DNA of 64,000 nt, from the NCBI RefSeq assembly GCF_001443605.1, contig NZ_CP013118.1, positions 3,467,501 to 3,531,500 of the forward strand. Reading direction: 5' to 3'. Positions 14,767 to 62,077 of this stretch are shown piece after piece (within the stretch, counting starts at the first letter, position 1; each line of letters begins with the position of its first letter). The position numbers were made by a program, and so were the translations under genes. The stretch is from Salinivirga cyanobacteriivorans (GTDB lineage: Bacteria > Bacteroidota > Bacteroidia > Bacteroidales > Salinivirgaceae). The notes below the pieces were generated by a model. It ran no database searches. It was not told where the DNA came from and saw nothing but the letters and a program-made list of their open reading frames with translations.

Positions 14767-15846
14767 TCATTCTCCCGGGTATTCCAATACTTTCTCTTCA
14801 CCATCATACACCCTGTAAAATCCTTCGGCCAGCGCTTCCATTTCACTTTCGCCGGGGAGCACATGATAATCAGTGAGTCTGCCCACGTATTTTTTGAGGT
14901 CATCGGTGAAACGTTGGCTATGGGCAATGCCGCCCGTAATGCCAATGGCATGAGCGCGACCTTTTGAGGCGGCAAAACAGGCCCCAATTTCTTTGGCAAC
15001 CTGGTACACGAAGGCATTGTAAATTAATTCGGCTTTTGTATTGCCTTTGTCTATCATATCAAGTACTTCCCGCAGGTCTTCGGTGCCCAGGTAGGCTTTC
15101 AGACCGCTATTTTGAGAGAACAATTTCTTTACTTCCGCTTCAGGTTTACTGTAGCAGAGTTTCATCACACCTCGAAGGGGCAAGGCGCCGGCACGGTTTG
15201 GAGAGAAAGGTCCCATACCCAGCAGGCCATCGTTCACATCAACTATGCGTCCTCCGCTTACAAGCCCGATGGAGATGCCACCACCCAAATGCGCCACAAC
15301 AAAATCAGATTCAGCAAAAGGTACTTTGTACATTTTGGAGAGTTTACGGGCCGTCATTTTTACGTTCAGGGTATGTGCCCTGCCATCGCGCACGATGCCC
15401 GGCACACCCGATATCTTGGCCACCTCGCTCAGTCGGCTGGTTGAAACCGGATCCACGGTGTAGCATTCCGGCAGGCTGAATTCACCTTTGAGCTTATGCA
15501 CAAGCAGACTACCCAGGTTGGAAGCATGTTCACCGTATTGCCCTGAGCGCGCATCTTGCAGAAACTCTGCATTGACACGATACGTGCCACCATTGATGGG
15601 TTTGACTATACCGCCCCGGCCCACAAGACCAATTACCTCAACGGTATGGTCTGAAATATATCCATCGATATAGGGTTTTATTTTTTGATACCGGTAGTCA
15701 AGTTGGTCGGCAATTTTTTCGAATTGCTGCAGTTCGCTTTGCGGATGACTGATATTAGACGAGGATAATTCGCCTTCGCGATTGTAAAAAGCAATTTTCG
15801 TAGATGTGGAACCCGGATTGATGACAATGATAACTTTGTTTTGCAT
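14767..15846 (-). CDS. Butyrate kinase family acyl kinase (variant, intact nucleotide loops)
   Basis: This 359-residue ASKHA-fold kinase has the phosphate-1 loop INPGSTSTK (about 9-17), GEHASNLG, AHLGGGIS and the adenosine motif TGGIAH all intact, so ATP-dependent acyl kinase activity is expected (acid + ATP = acyl phosphate + ADP). Compared with the canonical copy at 60998, the segment around DPVVVDE reads DPVSTSR, and RKSIFHALNQK reads RDGRAHTLNVK. These changes suggest another acid substrate, such as a branched-chain acid (inference). No phosphotransacylase is adjacent. It is transcribed away from the dehydrogenase-IcmF operon across a 320-bp intergenic region. Confidence 0.8.
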   Translation of the reverse strand: MQNKVIIVINPGSTSTKIAFYNREGELSSSNISHPQSELQQFEKIADQLDYRYQKIKPYIDGYISDHTVEVIGLVGRGGIVKPINGGTYRVNAEFLQDARSGQYGEHASNLGSLLVHKLKGEFSLPECYTVDPVSTSRLSEVAKISGVPGIVRDGRAHTLNVKMTARKLSKMYKVPFAESDFVVAHLGGGISIGLVSGGRIVDVNDGLLGMGPFSPNRAGALPLRGVMKLCYSKPEAEVKKLFSQNSGLKAYLGTEDLREVLDMIDKGNTKAELIYNAFVYQVAKEIGACFAASKGRAHAIGITGGIAHSQRFTDDLKKYVGRLTDYHVLPGESEMEALAEGFYRVYDGEEKVLEYPGE

Positions 15847-16166: not shown

Positions 16167-17309
16167 ATGCATTTTGAATACACCGAGGAACAGCTCATGG
16201 CACAGCAGTCTGCAAGAGATCTGGCGCAAAAAGAATTTATCAAGGATGTGATTGAGCGGGATACCAACGCCATTTTTCCCGAAAAACATGTAAAAAAACT
16301 GGCCGAACTGGGCTTCATGGGCATGCAGGTTGACCCGAAATACGACGGTACAGGTATGGATACGGTTTCATACGTGCTGGCAATAGAAGAAATTTCCAAA
16401 GTAGATTCTTCTCTGGGTGTAATCATGTCGGTCAATAATTCTTTGGTATGTTTTCCCATAGAAAAATATGGTAACGAGGAGCAGAAGGAGAAATACCTCA
16501 AACCGCTTGCCCGTGGCGATAAACTAGGGGCATTTTTACTTTCCGAACCAGAAGCGGGCTCCGATGCCACAAGGCAACGTACCATAGCAGAGGATAAGGG
16601 CGACCATTACGTGATCAATGGTACCAAAAACTGGATCACCAGCGGAAACTCGGCTGACACGTACGTGGTCATTGCCCACACCCACCCGGAAAAAGGACAC
16701 AAAGGGATCAATGCGTTCATCGTGGACCGGCACTCAGAAGGGATCAGCCCGGGACAGCATGAAGATAAAATGGGCATGCGGAGTTCCGATACGCATTCAG
16801 TGATGTTTTCTGACGTTAAAGTACCCAAAGAGAACCGCCTGAGCGACGACGGCATGGGTTTTAAAATTGCCATGAAAACACTGGAGGCCGGACGATTGGG
16901 AATTGCTGCCCAGGCTCTCGGATTGGCTTCAGGCGCTTATGAGCTCTCCCTTAAATATGCCAAAGAACGCAAAGCATTTGGTACCGAAATCATTAACCAC
17001 CAGGCCATAGCTTTCAAGCTGGCCGATATGGCCACGGATATTGAGATGATGCGTTTGCTGGCATTCAAAGCGGCCTGGCTCAAGGATAACGGCAAACCAT
17101 TTGGTACAGCCAGTGCCATGGCCAAACTGGCCTGTGCCGATAAAGCCATGCAAATCACCACGGAAGCCGTGCAGATTCACGGTGGATACGGTTATGTGAA
17201 AGAATACCATGTGGAACGCCTCATGCGAGATGCCAAACTCACACAAATCTACGAAGGTACTTCCGAAATACAAAAGATTGTCATTTCACGAGCTATTACC
17301 AATGCATAG
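16167..17309 (+). CDS. Short-chain acyl-CoA dehydrogenase
   Basis: This 380-residue FAD flavoprotein has full family length. The acyl-CoA dehydrogenase signatures LLSEPEAGSDATRQRTIA and YEGTSEIQKI are present, with E363 of YEGTSE in the catalytic-base position of short- and medium-chain enzymes. The QIHGGYGYVKEYHVERLMRDAK segment contributes to FAD binding at the dimer interface. It would interconvert butyryl-CoA and crotonyl-CoA or a branched analogue. It is the first gene of an apparent operon with icmF (36 bp downstream), so butyryl-CoA made by the mutase is the likely substrate (inference). No etfAB genes are in the window. Confidence 0.92.
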   Translation: MHFEYTEEQLMAQQSARDLAQKEFIKDVIERDTNAIFPEKHVKKLAELGFMGMQVDPKYDGTGMDTVSYVLAIEEISKVDSSLGVIMSVNNSLVCFPIEKYGNEEQKEKYLKPLARGDKLGAFLLSEPEAGSDATRQRTIAEDKGDHYVINGTKNWITSGNSADTYVVIAHTHPEKGHKGINAFIVDRHSEGISPGQHEDKMGMRSSDTHSVMFSDVKVPKENRLSDDGMGFKIAMKTLEAGRLGIAAQALGLASGAYELSLKYAKERKAFGTEIINHQAIAFKLADMATDIEMMRLLAFKAAWLKDNGKPFGTASAMAKLACADKAMQITTEAVQIHGGYGYVKEYHVERLMRDAKLTQIYEGTSEIQKIVISRAITNA

Positions 17310-17345: not shown

Positions 17346-20300
17346 ATGAACAAAAATAAGGTTTACGAGCCGGATAATAAGTTAAGAGTCATTACCGCCA
17401 CATCACTTTTTGATGGTCACGATGCCACTATCAACATCATTCGTAGAATACTGCAATCAAGTGGTTGCGAGGTCATTCACCTGGGACACAACAAGTCGGT
17501 AGATGAAATCGTAAATTATGCCATCCAGGAAGATGTACAGGCCATTGCCGTTACTTCATACCAGGGCGGCCACCTGGAATTTTACAAATACATGTACGAC
17601 CTCTTACAGGAGCGCGGCTGCGGACATATCAAAATATTTGGCGGTGGCGGAGGTGTGATTTTGCCCGAAGAACAGGAGGAATTGCACAAGTACGGCATTG
17701 CCCGTATCTATTCCCCCGATGATGGACGTAAAATGGGCCTTCAGGGTATGATCAATGATTTGATCAAAATAAGTGATTTCCCGTTGGGCAACAATGGTGT
17801 GGAGCTGGAAAAAGTCAAAAAGCGTGAACCATATCCCATTGCCTCACTTATTTCACAAGTGGAGAATTTTCCGGATCAGGCCAATGGCTTGATGGAAACC
17901 GTCAGGAGTGAATCCCGGAAATCCAGGACCCCGGTGATTGGGATGACCGGTACCGGTGGTGCAGGAAAGTCGTCCATGGTCGATGAAATTATTCGACGAT
18001 TCAACGATAGGTACCCAAAACTCCACGTGGGTATCGTTTCAGTCGATCCTACAAGACGCAAAGGCGGTGGAGCCCTGCTTGGCGACCGTATCCGCATGAA
18101 CGCCATCAACCATCCCAGTGTGTATATGCGTTCACTGGCTACTCGCAGCCAGAACCAGGCATTATCATCGCATGTGAAGGATGCCGTGGATATTCTAAAG
18201 TTTGCAGGGTACGATATCATCATACTTGAATCCTCAGGTATTGGGCAGTCCGGTACAGAGATCATTGATCAGAGCGATGTGTATTTTTACGTGATGACAC
18301 CTGAATTCGGGGCAGCCACACAGCTCGAAAAAATTGCCATGCTCGACTATGCCGATATTGTAGCCCTCAATAAGTTCGATAAACAGGGCGCACTGGATGC
18401 TTTGCGTGATGTGAAAAAGCAATATCAGCGCAATCACATGTTGTTTGAACAGCCACTCGAGGAGATGCCGGTATATGGTACCATTGCATCGCAATACAAT
18501 AACGAAGGGGTGAATATTCTTTTTGAAGCGCTAATTAATACCGTTACTGAAAAAACCGGGTACAAATTTCCCAAAGCAAAGCAAAACCTTCGAATTAGTC
18601 ATAACGACCAGGAAATTGTGCCACCGAACCGGGTGCGTTACCTCTCAGAGATTGCAGAAACAGTGCGCAACTATAACCAGGAAATAGAAGAAAAAGCAGC
18701 GGTGGCCAATCGGCTTCAGGCACTGCTTACTGCTACAGAAGAGCTTACTCGTGAAAAAGATATTGAAGCACTGCTCAACGAAAAAGTGGAGTCGCTCAAG
18801 CAGGAGCTGGGTAGTGAAAATCAATCTATTCTCGAGCAATGGGAAGCGAAAAAGCAACGCTACAAGGATGAACATTATACCTATAAAGTTCGTGGTAAAG
18901 AGATCAGGGTTGAAACGCATGTGGAAACGCTTTCACATACCCGTATTCCGAAAGTGTCTTTGCCAAAATATAAAGCCTGGGGTGATATTCTGAAATGGAA
19001 CCTGAAAGAGAATGTGCCAGGTGAGTTTCCATATGCTGCCGGTGTTTTCCCATTTAAGCGCGAATTCGAAGATCCTACGCGCATGTTTGCCGGCGAGGGT
19101 GGGCCTGAACGCACAAACAAGCGGTTTCATTACCTGTCGAAAGACCAAAAAGCCAAAAGGCTCTCTACGGCTTATGATTCGGTGACTCTGTATGGCTCCA
19201 ATCCCGATATACGACCCGATATTTATGGAAAAATTGGTAATTCGGGGGTTTCTGTGGCCTGCCTCGATGATGCCAAGAAACTTTATTCCGGATTTGACCT
19301 GCTCGACCCGGCCACATCAGTTTCAATGACCATAAACGGACCCGCACCTTTTATGGTTGGCTATTTTTTCAATGCGGCTATTGATCAGCAGTGCGAAAAA
19401 TATATTGTAGAGCACGGCTTGGAAGACCAGGTCAAACAAAAGGTGAAGGAGATTTATAAAGATAATGGCATCAATCCGCCTAACTACCTGGGCGACCTTC
19501 CGGATAACAATGATGGTCTGGGCTTGAGGCTGCTCGGTGTGACAGGCGATCAGGTGCTGCCAGAGGATGTGTACAATGCCATCAAAGAAGAGACGCTGCA
19601 AAAAGTGCGTGGTACGATTCAGGCCGACATTCTGAAAGAAGATCAGGCCCAAAATACCTGCATCTTCTCAACAGATTTTGCCCTTACCATGATGGGTGAC
19701 ATACAGCAATACTTCATCGATCATAAAGTGAAAAACTTTTACTCGGTGTCCATTTCCGGATACCACATAGCCGAAGCTGGTGCCAATCCGATCACACAAT
19801 TGGCATTTACACTTGCTAATGGATTTACCTTTGTGGAGTATTACCTTTCGCGCGGCATGCACATCGATGATTTTGCCCCGCGTCTCTCGTTTTTCTTTTC
19901 TAACGGTCTTGATCCTGAGTATTCTGTAATTGGGCGGGTTGCCCGGCTTATTTGGGCCAAGGCTATGAAGTATAAATACAAAGGCAATGCACTGTCGCAA
20001 AAGCTGAAATACCATATTCAAACTTCGGGCAGGTCGCTGCACTCGCAGGAGATCGAATTTAACGATATTCGTACCACACTGCAGGCATTGTCTGGTATTT
20101 ACGACAACTGTAACTCCCTGCATACCAATGCATACGACGAGGCCATTACCACACCTACCGAGGAATCGGTGCGCAGAGCAATGGCCATTCAAATGATTAT
20201 CAATCATGAGTATGGCCTGACTAACAATCAAAATCCATTGCAAGGGTCATTCATTATAGAAGAATTAACCGACTTGGTAGAAGAGGCCGTGCTGGTAGAA

Positions 20301-20708
20301 TTCGATAGACTTACAGCGCGCGGAGGAGTGTTGGGTGCCATGGAATCGATGTATCAGCGTGCTAAGATTCAGGACGAGTCGCACTATTATGAAGCGCTTA
20401 AACACAGCGGGCAGTTGCCAATTATGGGAGTAAATACTTTTCTGTCTTCCAGCGGTTCACCTACTATTGTGCCCAATGAAGTAATAAGGGCAACAGACGA
20501 AGAAAAGCAACATCAGATTGAAAATATCAAAAAGTTTCATAAATTGAACAGTCAAAAAGCTGAAGAGATGCTAAAAGCGCTTAAAGCAGCTGTGCTGGAG
20601 AATAAAAATACATTTGAATACCTGATGGAAGCCACTAAATACTGTTCAATTGGTCAAATTACCAATGCATTGTTCGAAGTTGGTGGAGAATACAGACGCA
20701 ATATGTAG
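17346..20708 (+). CDS. icmF: Fused isobutyryl-CoA mutase (IcmF)
   Basis: This 1120-residue fusion has the domain order diagnostic of IcmF. An N-terminal B12-binding domain carries the cobalt ligand His25 in [10 protein letters not shown] MeaI-type G-protein chaperone follows, with Walker A GTGGAGKS near residue 205 and NKFD near 343. A linker leads to the large substrate-binding TIM barrel (about 560-1090) with [19 protein letters not shown] and [14 protein letters not shown]. It isomerises isobutyryl-CoA and n-butyryl-CoA using adenosylcobalamin; the G domain gates cofactor loading. Some homologues prefer pivalyl- or isovaleryl-CoA, which I cannot exclude from the sequence alone. It lies between an acyl-CoA dehydrogenase and a butyrate-kinase-like gene. 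Confidence 0.92.
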
Positions 20709-20759: not shown

Positions 20760-21860
20760 ATGAATTTTAAGACTGATTATTCTGCTGAAAATCTTGTACT
20801 GGTTGTAAATCCAAGAGTCCCCTTTACAAAAATCGGGGTCTACAATAATAGTAAGCTTGTTTTTTTAAAGAAAATAAGCCACAACGACGCAGATCTGGCG
20901 CAGTTTACAAAATATGAAGATCAGACAAACTACCGCAAGGAGGCTATAATTAAAGAACTCAGAGAGAATGATGTGGATGTGAATAAAATTCGCATAGTAA
21001 TTAGTCGTGGAGGCCTTATAAAACCGGTTAAATCGGGTATTTATGCTGTAGATAAAAAAGTGAAAGATGATTTGTACAATTCTGTGCAGGGATCAGATAT
21101 AGTGAATCTTGGCGGGTTGATCTCTGATGCCATTGCATCTGAACTCCCCGATTCGAAGGCGGTTATTGCCGATCCTGTGGTGGTAGATGAGTATGATGAT
21201 GTTGCCAGGGTAACAGGTTTACCCGAAATTGAGAGAAGATCTATTTTTCATGCACTTAATCAAAAACAGGCTGCATGCCGTTATTCCAAATCTATCCACA
21301 AAGCGTGTGAAGACCTGAATTTAATTATTGCCCACCTGGGAACTGGCATTACAGTAGGTGCACACAACAAAGGACGCGTGATCGATGCCAATATGGGTTA
21401 CGATGGCGATGGCCCCTTTTCACCCATACGTGCAGGAAGCCTGCCCACCGGTGACTTAATTAAACTATGCTATAGTGGTAAATATACCGAAGAGGAGATG
21501 CTTAAAAGAGTTAGCCTTGAAGGAGGTCTTTTTGCGCATTTTGGTACACCAAGCGGAATCGACGTGGACAAAATGGTGAAGCAGGGCGATAAGCAGGCAG
21601 AACTGGTGTTTAGTGCCATGGGCTACCAGGTGGCTAAAACTATCGGTTCAATGTATGCCGTGCTTTACGGACAGGTTGATGCCATTATTCTTACCGGTCC
21701 AATGGCCAATAGTGAATGGTTGGTGAAAAAAATTGTGGACCGGGTAGAGCACTTCGGTAAAATTGTAGTGTATCCGGGTTCCGATGATATAGAAACACTG
21801 GCTATGAAAGGTGTTGGTGTAATCAATGGCGAAGAAGAAGTGAAAAAATATCAGGGCTAG
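20760..21860 (+). CDS. Butyrate-kinase-like protein with degenerate ATP-binding loops
   Basis: This 366-residue protein aligns end to end with the canonical butyrate kinase at 60998 and keeps the acyl-side segments DPVVVDE, SIFHALNQK and GPFSPIRAGSLP. The nucleotide motifs are changed: NPGSTSTK is NPRVPFTK, GEHASNLG is GSDIVNLG, AHMGGGIS is AHLGTGIT, TGGIAHN is TGPMANS, and GEDEMKALA is GSDDIETLA. Loss of the phosphate-1 serine/threonines and adenosine-site glycine makes ordinary kinase activity unlikely. The frame is intact and full length, so it is under selection rather than decaying. It starts 51 bp after icmF, probably in the same operon. Possible roles are an acyl-ligand sensor, a regulatory partner of IcmF, or a kinase with altered nucleotide use; all are inference. 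Confidence 0.8.
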   Translation: MNFKTDYSAENLVLVVNPRVPFTKIGVYNNSKLVFLKKISHNDADLAQFTKYEDQTNYRKEAIIKELRENDVDVNKIRIVISRGGLIKPVKSGIYAVDKKVKDDLYNSVQGSDIVNLGGLISDAIASELPDSKAVIADPVVVDEYDDVARVTGLPEIERRSIFHALNQKQAACRYSKSIHKACEDLNLIIAHLGTGITVGAHNKGRVIDANMGYDGDGPFSPIRAGSLPTGDLIKLCYSGKYTEEEMLKRVSLEGGLFAHFGTPSGIDVDKMVKQGDKQAELVFSAMGYQVAKTIGSMYAVLYGQVDAIILTGPMANSEWLVKKIVDRVEHFGKIVVYPGSDDIETLAMKGVGVINGEEEVKKYQG

Positions 21861-22044: not shown

Positions 22045-22536
22045 TTAACTATTCCCTTTTTCAATAATGTCTTTGATATACCGGTCGGGTACCTGGATTG
22101 TAACTACTTCTCCTGTGGCTGTAATTTCGCCTTGCGCCATCACTTTTACATCAACAATTACTTTTTTACCTTTTATTTCACGTATGGTACCCCGTAGTTC
22201 CAATATGGTATTGATGGGGGTGGGTTTGATGTATTTAACGTTAAGCATTCCGGTAAGGAATCGGAAAGAAGGTTCACTGTCCATAGGCCGGTTTTCCTTG
22301 CGATACATTGCTGCTGATGCTGATCCGGTTCCATGGCAATCGATTATTGAAGCTAGCAATCCACCGTAAACATATCCGGGAATGGCAGTTTGATAAGGTC
22401 TTGGTTTATATCGGGTTACTGTTTCATCACCATCCCAATAGGTTTTGATCTGGTATCCGTGCTCGTTCATCGTTCCACAGCCATAGCAATGGCTGAGATG
22501 GTCTGGGTAATATTCCTGAAAGGCTTTTGTTTCCAT
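22045..22536 (-). CDS. PaaI-type hotdog thioesterase
   Basis: This 163-residue single hotdog domain has the opening HCYGCGTMNEHGY and the central-helix motif GYVYGGLLASIIDCHG typical of PaaI/YigI-like acyl-CoA thioesterases. It would hydrolyse an acyl-CoA to acid and CoA in the cytoplasm; chain length cannot be read from the sequence. It faces the IcmF operon and may release or scavenge CoA from short-chain acyl-CoAs (inference). The ATG at 22534-22536 fits the family start. Confidence 0.8.
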   Translation of the reverse strand: METKAFQEYYPDHLSHCYGCGTMNEHGYQIKTYWDGDETVTRYKPRPYQTAIPGYVYGGLLASIIDCHGTGSASAAMYRKENRPMDSEPSFRFLTGMLNVKYIKPTPINTILELRGTIREIKGKKVIVDVKVMAQGEITATGEVVTIQVPDRYIKDIIEKGNS

Positions 22537-57879: not shown

Positions 57880-59082
57880 ATGAAAGTCTTAGTTTTAAAT
57901 TGCGGAAGTTCATCTATCAAATTCCAGCTCCTGGAAATGACTACCGAAGAACTAATTATTAAAGGTATTGTTGAAAAAATTGGTTTAAAAGGTTCTTTTC
58001 TCAAAAGTAAGCGTAATGATGGCGATGAGGTGAAACTGGAAGGTGAGATTCTTGATCACCAAACCGGAATTGAATATATCCTTGGAGTGCTAATTAGCAA
58101 GGAACACGGTTCTATTAAAAGCCTTGATGAAATTGGAGCAGTGGGCCACAGAGTAGCTCATGGTGGCGAACATTTTAAAGAAAGTGCACTGCTAACAGAT
58201 GAGGCAATAGGCAAAATAGAGGAGTGTGCTGAACTGGCACCCCTGCACAACCCGGCCAACCTTAAAGGAATTTATGCCATTCAGTCATTAATTCCCGATG
58301 TAGAACAAGTTGCAGTTTTTGACACATCTTTCCATCAAACTATGCCGGCTCATGCCTACATGTACGGCATACCACAGGCACTTTATGAAAAGTACGGTAT
58401 TCGCCGTTACGGATTTCATGGAACCAGCCACCGGTTTGTTGCACAGGAAACCTGTAAGATGCTCAATATTAAAATGGAAACCCATAAAATTGTAACCTGC
58501 CATTTAGGTAATGGTGCTTCCGTTGCTGCTATAGATCGAGGTCAGTCAATAGATACATCAATGGGTTTCACTCCGCTGGAAGGCCTAATTATGGGAACCC
58601 GTTCAGGCGATTTGGATGTAGGTGCTTTTATGTTTATCATGGAAAAAGAGGAAATTGGACTAAAATCTGCCAATACATTAGTAAATAAGCATAGTGGTAT
58701 GGTTGGTTTAACTGGAGTTAGTTCAGATATGCGAACTATCGAAGAAGCTGCCGAAAACGGTGATGAACGGTGCGCAAATGCTTTAAAAGCCTATGATTAT
58801 CGTATCAAAAAATATATAGGATCATACACAGCAGCTATGAACGGGCTTGATGTACTCATTTTTACAGGTGGAATAGGCGAAAATGCCGACACAACACGCC
58901 GTGGTGTTGCCAATGATTTAGAGTACCTTGGAATAAAAATCGATCCTGAGAAAAACGACGGTTTGCGCGGAAAACCAACAGTAATCAGTACCGATGACTC
59001 CAGGGTAAAAGTTGTTGTTATGCCAACAAACGAAGAGTTGGTAATTGCCAAGGATACAGTAAATATTGTGGAAAATAAATAA
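57880..59082 (+). CDS. ackA: Acetate kinase
   Basis: This 400-residue protein of normal length has N-terminal VLNCGSSSIKFQL (phosphate-1), the substrate arginine region ELAPLHNPANLKGI, FDTSFHQTMP, YGFHGTSHRFVA, the phosphate-2 loop CHLGNGASVAAI and GLIMGTRSGDLD. It transfers phosphate between acetyl phosphate and ADP, giving ATP and acetate. It is 89 bp after the divergent dehydrogenase and 18 bp before the first ptb gene. Confidence 0.96.
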   Translation: MKVLVLNCGSSSIKFQLLEMTTEELIIKGIVEKIGLKGSFLKSKRNDGDEVKLEGEILDHQTGIEYILGVLISKEHGSIKSLDEIGAVGHRVAHGGEHFKESALLTDEAIGKIEECAELAPLHNPANLKGIYAIQSLIPDVEQVAVFDTSFHQTMPAHAYMYGIPQALYEKYGIRRYGFHGTSHRFVAQETCKMLNIKMETHKIVTCHLGNGASVAAIDRGQSIDTSMGFTPLEGLIMGTRSGDLDVGAFMFIMEKEEIGLKSANTLVNKHSGMVGLTGVSSDMRTIEEAAENGDERCANALKAYDYRIKKYIGSYTAAMNGLDVLIFTGGIGENADTTRRGVANDLEYLGIKIDPEKNDGLRGKPTVISTDDSRVKVVVMPTNEELVIAKDTVNIVENK

Positions 59083-59100: not shown

Positions 59101-60003
59101 ATGATTAAGAAGCTCGATCAAATGTTTGATGCCCTGAAAAATCAGGACAGGAAAAAACTAGTTGCCGCCTGGGCCAACGATGCACATACAATTGGTGCTG
59201 TAAGCGAAGCTATTGATAAAGGTATAGTCGATGGCATATTGGTAGGAGATCAACAAGTTATTAAACAAACATGTGAAAGCGAAGGAATTGATATTGGTAA
59301 ATTTACTATTATGCACGTCGATAGTGATGTTGAAGCTGCTAATAAATCAGTAGAAATGGTGGCCAATGGAGATGGTGATGTGCTTATGAAAGGCCTTCTG
59401 AGTACTGATAAATATATGCGAGGTATTCTGAATAAAGAATATGGCTTACTCCCTCCGAAAGGTATTCTGAGCCACGTTACCGTTATCCAGAATCCAAAGT
59501 ACCATAAACTTCTGGTAGTGGGTGATGTTGCTGTTATTCCGCAGCCAGACTTAAAACAAAAAGTTGCCATAACCAACTACCTGATTCACGCCGCAAAATC
59601 ATTAGGAGTAGAAAAACCAAAAGTTGCAGCTATATCTGCTTCGGAGCAGGTTATTGCTGATTTACCGTCCTCCTCTGAAGCCACTATTCTGGCAAAAATG
59701 TCGGAACGGGGCCAAATCAAAGGAGGTATTGTCGAGGGCCCATTAGCACTCGATCTTGCTGTTGATAAAGCATCAGCTCAAGTCAAAAAAATCGATAGCG
59801 AAGTGGCCGGCGATGCAGACTGCCTTCTTTTTCCGAATATTGAATCAGGAAATGTTTTTTACAAAACAAGCACGAAATTATCGGACACTGAACTGGGTGC
59901 AGTTGTGGCAGGAGCAAAGGTGCCGGCTGTATTGTCATCGAGGGGTGACAGTACGCAGACTAAATTGTACTCTATTGCTTTGGCGGCTTTAATGTCAAAA
60001 TAA
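59101..60003 (+). CDS. ptb: Phosphate butyryltransferase, copy 1
   Basis: This 300-residue phosphotransacylase of the Ptb group has the family pattern GDVLMKGLLSTDKYMRGIL, LLPPKGILSHVTVI, DLKQKVAITNYLIHAA, MSERGQIKGGIVEGPLALD and LFPNIESGNVFYK, with the catalytic-side SSRGDSTQTK near the end. It converts butyryl-CoA (or isobutyryl- and isovaleryl-CoA) + Pi to the acyl phosphate. It directly follows ackA and is separated from the second copy by a strong hairpin terminator. Confidence 0.9.
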   Translation: MIKKLDQMFDALKNQDRKKLVAAWANDAHTIGAVSEAIDKGIVDGILVGDQQVIKQTCESEGIDIGKFTIMHVDSDVEAANKSVEMVANGDGDVLMKGLLSTDKYMRGILNKEYGLLPPKGILSHVTVIQNPKYHKLLVVGDVAVIPQPDLKQKVAITNYLIHAAKSLGVEKPKVAAISASEQVIADLPSSSEATILAKMSERGQIKGGIVEGPLALDLAVDKASAQVKKIDSEVAGDADCLLFPNIESGNVFYKTSTKLSDTELGAVVAGAKVPAVLSSRGDSTQTKLYSIALAALMSK

Positions 60004-60048: not shown

Positions 60049-60062
60049 AAATAGTGCAGCTT

Positions 60063-60980
60063 ATGAAACCAATCCGAAAGCTCGACCAAATGGTTGAGTA
60101 TTTAAAAAGCAGAGGAGAAAAAAAACGCATAGCTGTGGCCAATGCACAGGATACAAATACAATTGGAGCTTTAGCAGAGGCTGTGAAAAACGGTTTTGCA
60201 GAAGCATTAATGGTTGGCCCTAAAAGCGAAATTGAAAGTGCAGCAAGGCAACAAAATATTGATCCTCGTATTTTTCAAATCATTGATATTAAAGATGAAA
60301 CTGAGGCTACATATTATGCAAGAAAACTTGTTAAAAATGACGAGGCAGATGTGTTAATGAAAGGGCTCGTAGGAACAGATAAATTTTTAAAAGCGGTGCT
60401 TGATAAAAAAGACGGGCTGTTGCCACCAAAAGCTGTGATGAGTTATGTGTGTGCAATTGAATTGCCTAAATATCACAAACTTTTGTTTGTTACCGATACT
60501 GCAGTATTACCCTTTCCCGATTTGAAACAGAAGGTAGCCATGCTTAATTATAGCGTAGAAATGGCCAATAAATTCGGTATTGAAAAGCCCAAAGTAGCCC
60601 TTATCGGAGCATCTGAGAAAGTTAGCGAAGGATTCCCCAATAGTATTGACTATGCTATGATTAGCAAAATGGCTGAGCGTGGGCAAACCAAACCATGCAT
60701 CGCCGATGGCCCGCTGGATGTGTTTCTGGCATGTGACCCTGAAAGTGTAAAAATAAAAGGAGTAAATACCCCCGTAGGAGGTGATGCTGATGTGCTTTTA
60801 TTCCCAACACTGGAGGCATGTAATAGTTTTTATAAAGGTCTAATGTTGTTTGGCGGTGGTGAGCTGGCCGGACTAATTCAGGGCACAGAAAAACCCGTTG
60901 TTGTAATGTCAAGAAGTGAAAGTGCGAAATCAAAGTTTTATTGTGTGGCACTCTCATGCTTAATGAGCGAAAATAATTAG
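60063..60980 (+). CDS. ptb: Phosphate butyryltransferase, copy 2
   Basis: This 305-residue paralogue of the preceding gene has DVLMKGLVGTDKFLKAVL, LLPPKAVMSYVCAI, DLKQKVAMLNYSVEMA and MAERGQTKPCIADGPLDV. Two active-site-side segments differ from copy 1: PNIESGN becomes PTLEACN, and SSRGDS becomes MSRSES. The frame is intact, so a different acyl-CoA preference is more likely than loss of function (inference). The ATG at 60063 is preferred over a GTG three codons upstream. It is 17 bp before buk and probably coupled with it. Confidence 0.87.
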   Translation: MKPIRKLDQMVEYLKSRGEKKRIAVANAQDTNTIGALAEAVKNGFAEALMVGPKSEIESAARQQNIDPRIFQIIDIKDETEATYYARKLVKNDEADVLMKGLVGTDKFLKAVLDKKDGLLPPKAVMSYVCAIELPKYHKLLFVTDTAVLPFPDLKQKVAMLNYSVEMANKFGIEKPKVALIGASEKVSEGFPNSIDYAMISKMAERGQTKPCIADGPLDVFLACDPESVKIKGVNTPVGGDADVLLFPTLEACNSFYKGLMLFGGGELAGLIQGTEKPVVVMSRSESAKSKFYCVALSCLMSENN

Positions 60981-60997
60981 TATAAAATCAAATAGAT

Positions 60998-62077
60998 ATG
61001 GATTGCTGTTACAGAATTCTGGCTATCAATCCCGGATCAACATCCACAAAGATAGCCGTTTATGAAAACGACAAATCGTTATTCCTCAAAACCCTAAGGC
61101 ATAATTGCGATGAACTCGAAAAATTTGAGAAAGTTGCTGATGAATTTCAGTTCAGAAAAGATATCATTTTGCAAGAACTTGCTAATGCCGAAATCGAAAT
61201 AGAATCATTAAGTGCTATCGTAGGGCGAGGCGGATTAATAAAGCCTGTTGAAGGTGGTTGTTATATTGTGAATGATAGAATGATAGAAGACCTTAAAAAG
61301 GCTGAGCGTGGTGAGCACGCCTCAAACCTGGGTGCATTGATTGCACACGACATTGCACGGGAAGTAAAAGATGCCCAGGCATTTATTGCCGATCCTGTGG
61401 TTGTTGATGAATTACAGGATGTGGCACGTTTTACGGGTCACCCAAAATTTGAACGGAAATCTATTTTTCATGCACTAAACCAGAAAGCAATAGGAAGAAT
61501 TCATGCCCGTTCAATGCACAAAAAATATCATGATTTGAATTTTATCATCGCGCATATGGGCGGTGGTATTTCAGTTGGAGCACATCGTAAGGGTAAGGTA
61601 ATAGATGTTAATAACGCCCTTGACGGAGAAGGTCCTTTTTCTCCTGAACGTACCGGAACACTACCTGCTGGTGATTTGGCCAAACTCTGTTTTAGCGGCG
61701 AATTTACCCTTGAAGATGTGAAAAAAATGATTAAAGGGAAAGGCGGATTAGTAGCCTATTTGGATACAAATGATGCCTATACCGTTGAGAAAGCAGCTGA
61801 CAGTGGTGACGAAAAAGCAAAAGTTGTTCAGGATGCAATGTGCTACCAGGTAGGCAAAGCAATAGGAGAGATGTCGGCTGTGCTAAAAGGAGAGGTCGAC
61901 GCCATATTGCTGACAGGAGGCATTGCACATAACAAATACTTAGTTGACTATGTGCGTGAAATGGTGGGATTTGTTGCCCCGATTGTAGTTTATGCCGGAG
62001 AAGATGAAATGAAGGCGCTGGCGACAAATGCTTTATACGCACTAACAAAAGAAATTGAAATAAAAGCGTATAAATAA
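60998..62077 (+). CDS. buk: Butyrate kinase, canonical copy
   Basis: This 359-residue ASKHA kinase has every expected motif intact: INPGSTSTKIAVY (about 10-22), GRGGLIKPVEGG, GEHASNLG, DPVVVDE, RKSIFHALNQKA, AHMGGGISVGAH, GPFSPERTGTLP, LTGGIAHNKYL and AGEDEMKALA. It makes ATP and butyrate (or a branched acid) from the acyl phosphate supplied by Ptb. It is the last gene of the acyl-phosphate cluster and is followed by a terminator. It serves as the reference for the variant copy at 14767 and the degenerate copy at 20760. Confidence 0.95.
   Translation: MDCCYRILAINPGSTSTKIAVYENDKSLFLKTLRHNCDELEKFEKVADEFQFRKDIILQELANAEIEIESLSAIVGRGGLIKPVEGGCYIVNDRMIEDLKKAERGEHASNLGALIAHDIAREVKDAQAFIADPVVVDELQDVARFTGHPKFERKSIFHALNQKAIGRIHARSMHKKYHDLNFIIAHMGGGISVGAHRKGKVIDVNNALDGEGPFSPERTGTLPAGDLAKLCFSGEFTLEDVKKMIKGKGGLVAYLDTNDAYTVEKAADSGDEKAKVVQDAMCYQVGKAIGEMSAVLKGEVDAILLTGGIAHNKYLVDYVREMVGFVAPIVVYAGEDEMKALATNALYALTKEIEIKAYK

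Follow-up and report, generated by a model that had tools for sequence, protein, structure and literature searches.

A butyrate kinase-like protein encoded next to icmF in Salinivirga cyanobacteriivorans belongs to a conserved Bacteroidales clade and is probably a non-catalytic partner protein

We found that the open reading frame at 20760-21860 (+) of the window, the whole 64,000-nucleotide stretch of Salinivirga cyanobacteriivorans DNA analyzed here, encodes a full-length butyrate kinase (Buk) paralogue that appears to have lost ordinary ATP holding and to have retained most of the acyl/phosphoryl side of its pocket. The reading that we favor, with moderate confidence, is that the protein would be a pseudokinase that is blind to ATP and that, on taking up an acyl ligand, influences a protein belonging to the (iso)butyryl-CoA node. 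Judged from its sequence, it is probably not an ordinary ATP-dependent acyl kinase. Because relatives in many related bacteria share the loss yet keep the gene intact, this conserved gene probably encodes a non-catalytic partner protein and is not a broken gene.

The reading frame begins with ATG, has zero internal stops, and encodes 366 amino acids. It starts 51 bp past the stop of icmF at 20708, as the preliminary description had stated. The icmF gene (17346-20708, +) encodes a fused isobutyryl-CoA mutase/GTPase of 1,120 amino acids (NF045497, 1,733 bits; cutoff, 1,500). An acyl-CoA dehydrogenase gene (16167-17309, +) opens the gene group 36 bp before icmF, and a thioesterase-like gene (22045-22536, −) converges on the group, a placement also found in several relatives. 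A promoter/terminator scan of the gap between icmF and the 20760 gene gave no terminator-like site on the plus strand, and site counts were near those of shuffled sequences.

The whole genome holds three close Buk copies and an acetate kinase and no more. The canonical Buk (60998-62077, +; TIGR02707, 534 bits) lies directly after two PTA_PTB genes (59101-60003 and 60054-60980, +; PF01515), and the acetate kinase is encoded at 57880-59082 (+; TIGR00016, 525 bits). The third Buk (14767-15846, −), which was absent from the preliminary description, has intact nucleotide motifs and is divergent from the acyl-CoA dehydrogenase gene. Its acyl side is changed (VDPVSTSR for ADPVVVDE and AHTL for FHAL). 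The same divergent arrangement recurs in loci L046, L047, and L079, and the branch that bears the copies of this type in the window and in those loci is long, at 1.7 changes per column.

The 20760 protein shares its fold family, its acyl-side residues, and 47% identity with the canonical, phosphotransbutyrylase (Ptb)-linked Bacteroidales Buk at 60998-62077. In that Buk, however, the nucleotide motifs are intact and the gene lies beside Ptb, whereas the 20760 gene lies beside icmF. When we aligned the protein with the Buk copies of the window, we found that the phosphate-1 loop, NPGSTSTK, is absent and replaced by NPRVPFTK (codons 17 to 24; 20808-20831, +). GSDIVNLG replaces GEHASNLG (codons 111 to 118; 21090-21113, +). 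The phosphate-2 motif, AHLGTGIT (codons 191 to 198; 21330-21353, +), has a changed glycine, with GTGIT for GGGIS. In the adenosine motif, LTGPMAN (codons 311 to 317; 21690-21710, +), TGPMAN stands for TGGIAH, and a proline has replaced the glycine that corresponds to Gly331 of acetate kinase. Thus, all four ATP motifs differ from those of the canonical copy, as had been described, with one correction: the last place of GGGIS is T in 35 and S in 25 of 60 intact Buk proteins, so the G-to-T change is the sole meaningful one in that motif. The residues checked on the acyl/phosphoryl side, R83 (21006-21008, +), D138, H164 (21249-21251, +), and R224 (21429-21431, +), are all present.

Structure prediction, which the preliminary description had proposed, confidently gave a butyrate kinase fold (AlphaFold2, 40-row alignment; pLDDT, 91.8; pTM, 0.88). 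By Foldseek, the model matched Thermotoga maritima butyrate kinase 2 (PDB 1SAZ and 1X9J) with a TM score of 0.92, similar length, and 43% identity in the structural alignment, and it matched acetate kinases at about 0.7 to 0.8, which, with a PF00871 match of 60 bits, places it in the acetokinase branch of the ASKHA fold. The T. maritima enzyme has NPGSTSTK, GEHASNLG, and the adenosine glycine; the 20760 protein lacks them.

We searched for homologues in the window's order (393 genomes), its family (6 genomes), several other families, and named contigs. The nearest relatives with the same changes are 71% identical (Salinivirgaceae) and then 68% identical (Bacteroidales). To avoid a view from the Buk side alone, we added 115 icmF regions (an icmF match was present in 137 of the 393 genomes of the order, and the regions came from these), and this sample showed loop loss in further types of relatives besides the NPR type. 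A split by NPR plus the D/H residue (47 versus 83) was dropped because it wrongly labeled the YP and KP types of the icmF-first sample as canonical. Classes were therefore defined by the phosphate-1 loop, with 60 intact representatives (52 from the window's order, 7 from the wider phylum, and 1 from WOR-3) and 57 degenerate representatives, every one of which comes from the window's order. The degenerate loops are of the types NPR (27), YPE (11), NPK (5), HPR (4), KPE (3), YPA (3), YPQ (3), and HPL (1). A degenerate gene is present in at least 55 of the 393 genomes of the order. In the wider phylum, an NPR-type profile matched 15 of 395 genomes at an E value of 1e-100, and all of the copies fetched from outside the order were intact. 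A separate observation concerns six genomes with frames of 653 to 713 amino acids. We read the frames of two of these (L389:538-2508 and L390:664-2634, both −), and in both an intact Buk is followed in the same chain by an ABC substrate-binding-protein domain (PF04392) at its C terminus, as though the kinase had been coupled to a ligand sensor.

The intact proteins share a phosphate-1 loop of N, P, G, S, T, S/T, T, and K, in which N, G, S, T, S, and K are conserved in 57 to 60 of 60. In the degenerate set, the loop G and most other loop positions are gone in 57 of 57, and P18 and T23 alone are universal. Since the loop itself had been used to split the classes, we placed the test at positions outside it. 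H192, G195, G314, E341, and E343 are all present in 60 of 60 intact proteins, whereas degenerate proteins have zero to three of the five (H192 in 34/57, G195 in 15/57, G314 in 10/56, E341 in 10/56, and E343 in 13/56), and the 20760 protein retains only H192. In contrast, all four of the acyl/phosphoryl-side residues are found in 43 of 57 degenerate proteins and at least three in 56 of 57. R83 is kept in 54 of 57 and H164 in every protein of both sets (57/57 and 60/60). D138 is kept in 49 and replaced by N in 6, N also occurring in intact Buk, and R224 is kept in 47 of 57 and missing in one degenerate branch. The expectation that the substitutions would be conserved as a clade was thus borne out for loss of the loop; the exact NPR motif and D113 are confined to a sub-branch (at position 113, 36 of the 57 have D and 21 have H).

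Trees built with the motif columns removed also separate the two classes. A quick tree of 133 rows required two state changes, one for the 57 degenerate rows, which it placed together (SH-aLRT, 93), and one for the single copy L249. In a more careful tree of 68 rows, which leaves out L249 and the long-branched L092, the degenerate rows made up one side of one branch (97/90), and 96% of 200 bootstrap trees recovered this split. The L249 copy (L249:5637-6716, −), which lies near icmF and has KTVSKTTK where the loop should be, falls inside the intact group and is, as read from its sequence, a second, independent loop loss.

Gene order links the degenerate clade to icmF and to acyl-CoA genes and not to Ptb. 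Starting from Buk genes with a 500-bp flank on each side (40 degenerate and 68 intact), we found icmF within 500 bp of 22 of the 40 degenerate genes, Ptb beside none, and neither gene beside 18. In contrast, Ptb adjoins 60 of the 68 intact genes and icmF adjoins 1 (Fisher's exact test on the contrast, P = 4e-11, with rows that are related). Starting from icmF, a downstream same-strand Buk-type gene was present in 36 of 97 loci; the first such gene was degenerate in all 36 and lay within 500 bp of icmF in 33, and an intact Buk followed as the second gene in 4. Loci L030, L198, L215, L259, and L292 have the tandem order icmF, degenerate Buk, intact Buk, and their five intact second copies form one group in the quick tree (SH-aLRT, 89), separate from Ptb-linked Buk. 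In one family the degenerate gene is tail to tail with icmF. The groups of some relatives add a 3-hydroxyacyl-CoA dehydrogenase, thiolase, or enoyl-CoA hydratase gene, which indicates a setting in butyryl-CoA metabolism. In a weak genome-wide comparison, 9 of 14 NPR-type genomes from the Buk-first sample have icmF versus 128 of 379 others (P = 0.024); this set of 14 is incomplete, and five further NPR-type genomes all have icmF.

The degenerate gene also occurs apart from icmF. Our icmF search of the 393 order genomes gave no match in G346, G043, G321, G360, and G376, all of which have the degenerate gene; in each, a mutase-domain search gave just two hits, in frames of methylmalonyl-CoA mutase size. 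In genome G828 (locus L387, between 8921 and 9295), a 73-residue icmF relic (residues 1048 to 1120; 51% identity; E value, 2.7e-17) is flanked by the acyl-CoA dehydrogenase gene on one side and by a degenerate Buk with an intact frame on the other. Together with the 18 of 40 genes that have neither neighbor, these genomes suggest that the protein can outlast a once-adjacent icmF. The proposal of a regulator of the B12 mutase, made in the preliminary description, therefore agrees with the gene order, but a role confined to IcmF is weakened by these five or more genomes and the relic.

Survival without icmF would be accounted for if the protein were a non-catalytic subunit of intact butyrate kinase in mixed oligomers, with adjacency to icmF reflecting shared pathway regulation only. 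Consistent with this, another Buk match was found in 49 of 50 genomes that carry the degenerate gene, with the loop intact in all 30 copies fetched, and the tandem order puts the two kinds of gene side by side in five loci. However, a Buk-type match is also present in 52 of 55 icmF genomes without an adjacent degenerate copy, so co-occurrence does not discriminate. Intact copies in the Buk-first sample are also mostly beside Ptb, and degenerate ones never are. We consider this explanation rather unlikely.

The changed residues can be compared with those of acetate kinase. In a profile alignment, positions N17, S20, S22, and K24 of the loop correspond to Asn7, Ser10, Ser12, and Lys14, and D138, H164, R224, and P314 correspond to Asp148, His180, Arg241, and Gly331. 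This alignment left Arg91, His123, and Glu384 of acetate kinase unaligned. We take R83 to be the equivalent of Arg91, and the equivalences for His123 and Glu384 are likewise our assumption, as are some of the acetate kinase residue names. The other names are from PMC4390882; in the available text of that paper, Asn7, Ser10, Ser11, Ser12, and Lys14 of the Methanosarcina thermophila enzyme are important for activity, and Asn211, Gly239, and Gly331 are likewise named.

If the protein were an acyl kinase that uses a different phosphoryl donor or acceptor, e.g., pyrophosphate/phosphate, it would resemble the acetate kinase of Entamoeba histolytica. As given in the accessible parts of PMC5517563 and PMC4390882, the pyrophosphate-dependent Entamoeba enzyme has Gln for Gly331, Thr for Asn211, and an extra phosphate-2 Gly. 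The adenosine-motif glycine is changed there and in the 20760 protein alike, and the Gly331-aligned position is changed in 46 of 56 degenerate proteins. Where acetate kinase has Asn211, the 20760 protein has T. Throughout the YP/HP branch (18 of 18 representatives; e.g., L229:4941-6035), the phosphate-2 loop is one residue longer, matching the Entamoeba loop, and it is of normal length in the 20760 protein and the NPR/HPR branch. It is because of this one branch that we retain a pyrophosphate-type kinase at all, as an improbable explanation. The Entamoeba enzyme is active according to the same part of PMC5517563, whereas the whole degenerate clade additionally lacks the phosphate-1 loop. The replacements at residue 19 are diverse (R in 31, E in 14, K in 5, A in 3, Q in 3, and L in 1), a pattern more in keeping with loss than with the making of a new donor site, and the branch without R224 has lost a residue of the other side as well. 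The Entamoeba enzyme presumably retains its phosphate-1 loop.

An ordinary ATP-dependent butyrate/isobutyrate kinase with a tolerated loop variant is improbable to a similar degree. The 20760 protein scores 420 bits against TIGR02707 (EC 2.7.2.7), above the equivalog cutoff of 289; NCBI butyrate kinase models match all 57 degenerate members, and member 1 passes both cutoffs. The presence of R83, D138, H164, and R224 also fits a working kinase. We nevertheless did not take an ordinary butyrate kinase with a small variant as the main reading, since the loss runs through the whole clade and reaches past the loop, with further nucleotide-side residues gone along with it in 57 of 57 proteins.

To gauge constraint, we estimated dN/dS. 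In ten independent close pairs of degenerate genes it was 0.03 to 0.20 (median, 0.084), and it reached 0.39 in an overlapping set of 28 pairs. The median of eight intact Buk pairs was 0.039, about half the degenerate median. The degenerate gene is constrained, slightly less so than intact Buk. Gene decay might be read into this somewhat higher dN/dS and into a loop that varies from branch to branch, but it is very unlikely given the open frames of normal length, the confident fold, the invariant residues shared with intact Buk, and the low dN/dS, which by itself largely refutes decay. We rejected decay or assembly error on the strength of orthologues at 68 to 71% identity in other assemblies together with dN/dS. 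The motif loss is common to orthologues under purifying selection and is not random decay peculiar to one gene. A pseudokinase kept by selection, as had been suggested, is therefore well supported by a loss found in 57 diverged representatives, on one side of one branch, with intact frames and purifying selection, and the degenerate clade would be a group of pseudoenzymes within the butyrate kinase family.

How such a pseudokinase might act can be outlined. A short acyl carboxylate or acyl phosphate would be bound in the retained pocket, and binding would alter a partner protein that works at the (iso)butyryl-CoA node. That partner could well be IcmF, although we would not count on it; with less probability it is intact Buk in a mixed oligomer, and what remains falls to another partner or an altered reaction. 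More tentatively, the proteins of the clade might sense acyl groups or acyl phosphates without responding to ATP, dock on IcmF or on their sister kinase, and report the product level to the node. The enzyme encoded next to the 20760 gene is the IcmF with a built-in G-protein chaperone treated in PMC10481361; the available text of that structure paper has no mention of "kinase" or "operon." Among the matches listed in the open-access literature, none described a butyrate kinase that is linked to icmF or that lacks ATP motifs. A possible mode of action is offered by Fam20A, a pseudokinase of the protein kinase fold that, in the part of the source available, lacks the usual catalysis and activates an active paralogue. 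Its fold is unrelated to that of butyrate kinase, so the comparison is by analogy only.

Genomes annotate the proteins of this clade as butyrate kinase. If they are not kinases, predictions of butyrate/isobutyrate pathways in an order of common anaerobes overcount a kinase. To our knowledge, the only helpers of IcmF are its own G-protein domain and an adenosyltransferase. Since a single genome encodes both sister proteins, the question lends itself to direct tests. If our reading is true, there is a widespread pseudoenzyme within a metabolic kinase family and possibly a further, new level at which a B12-dependent mutase is controlled.
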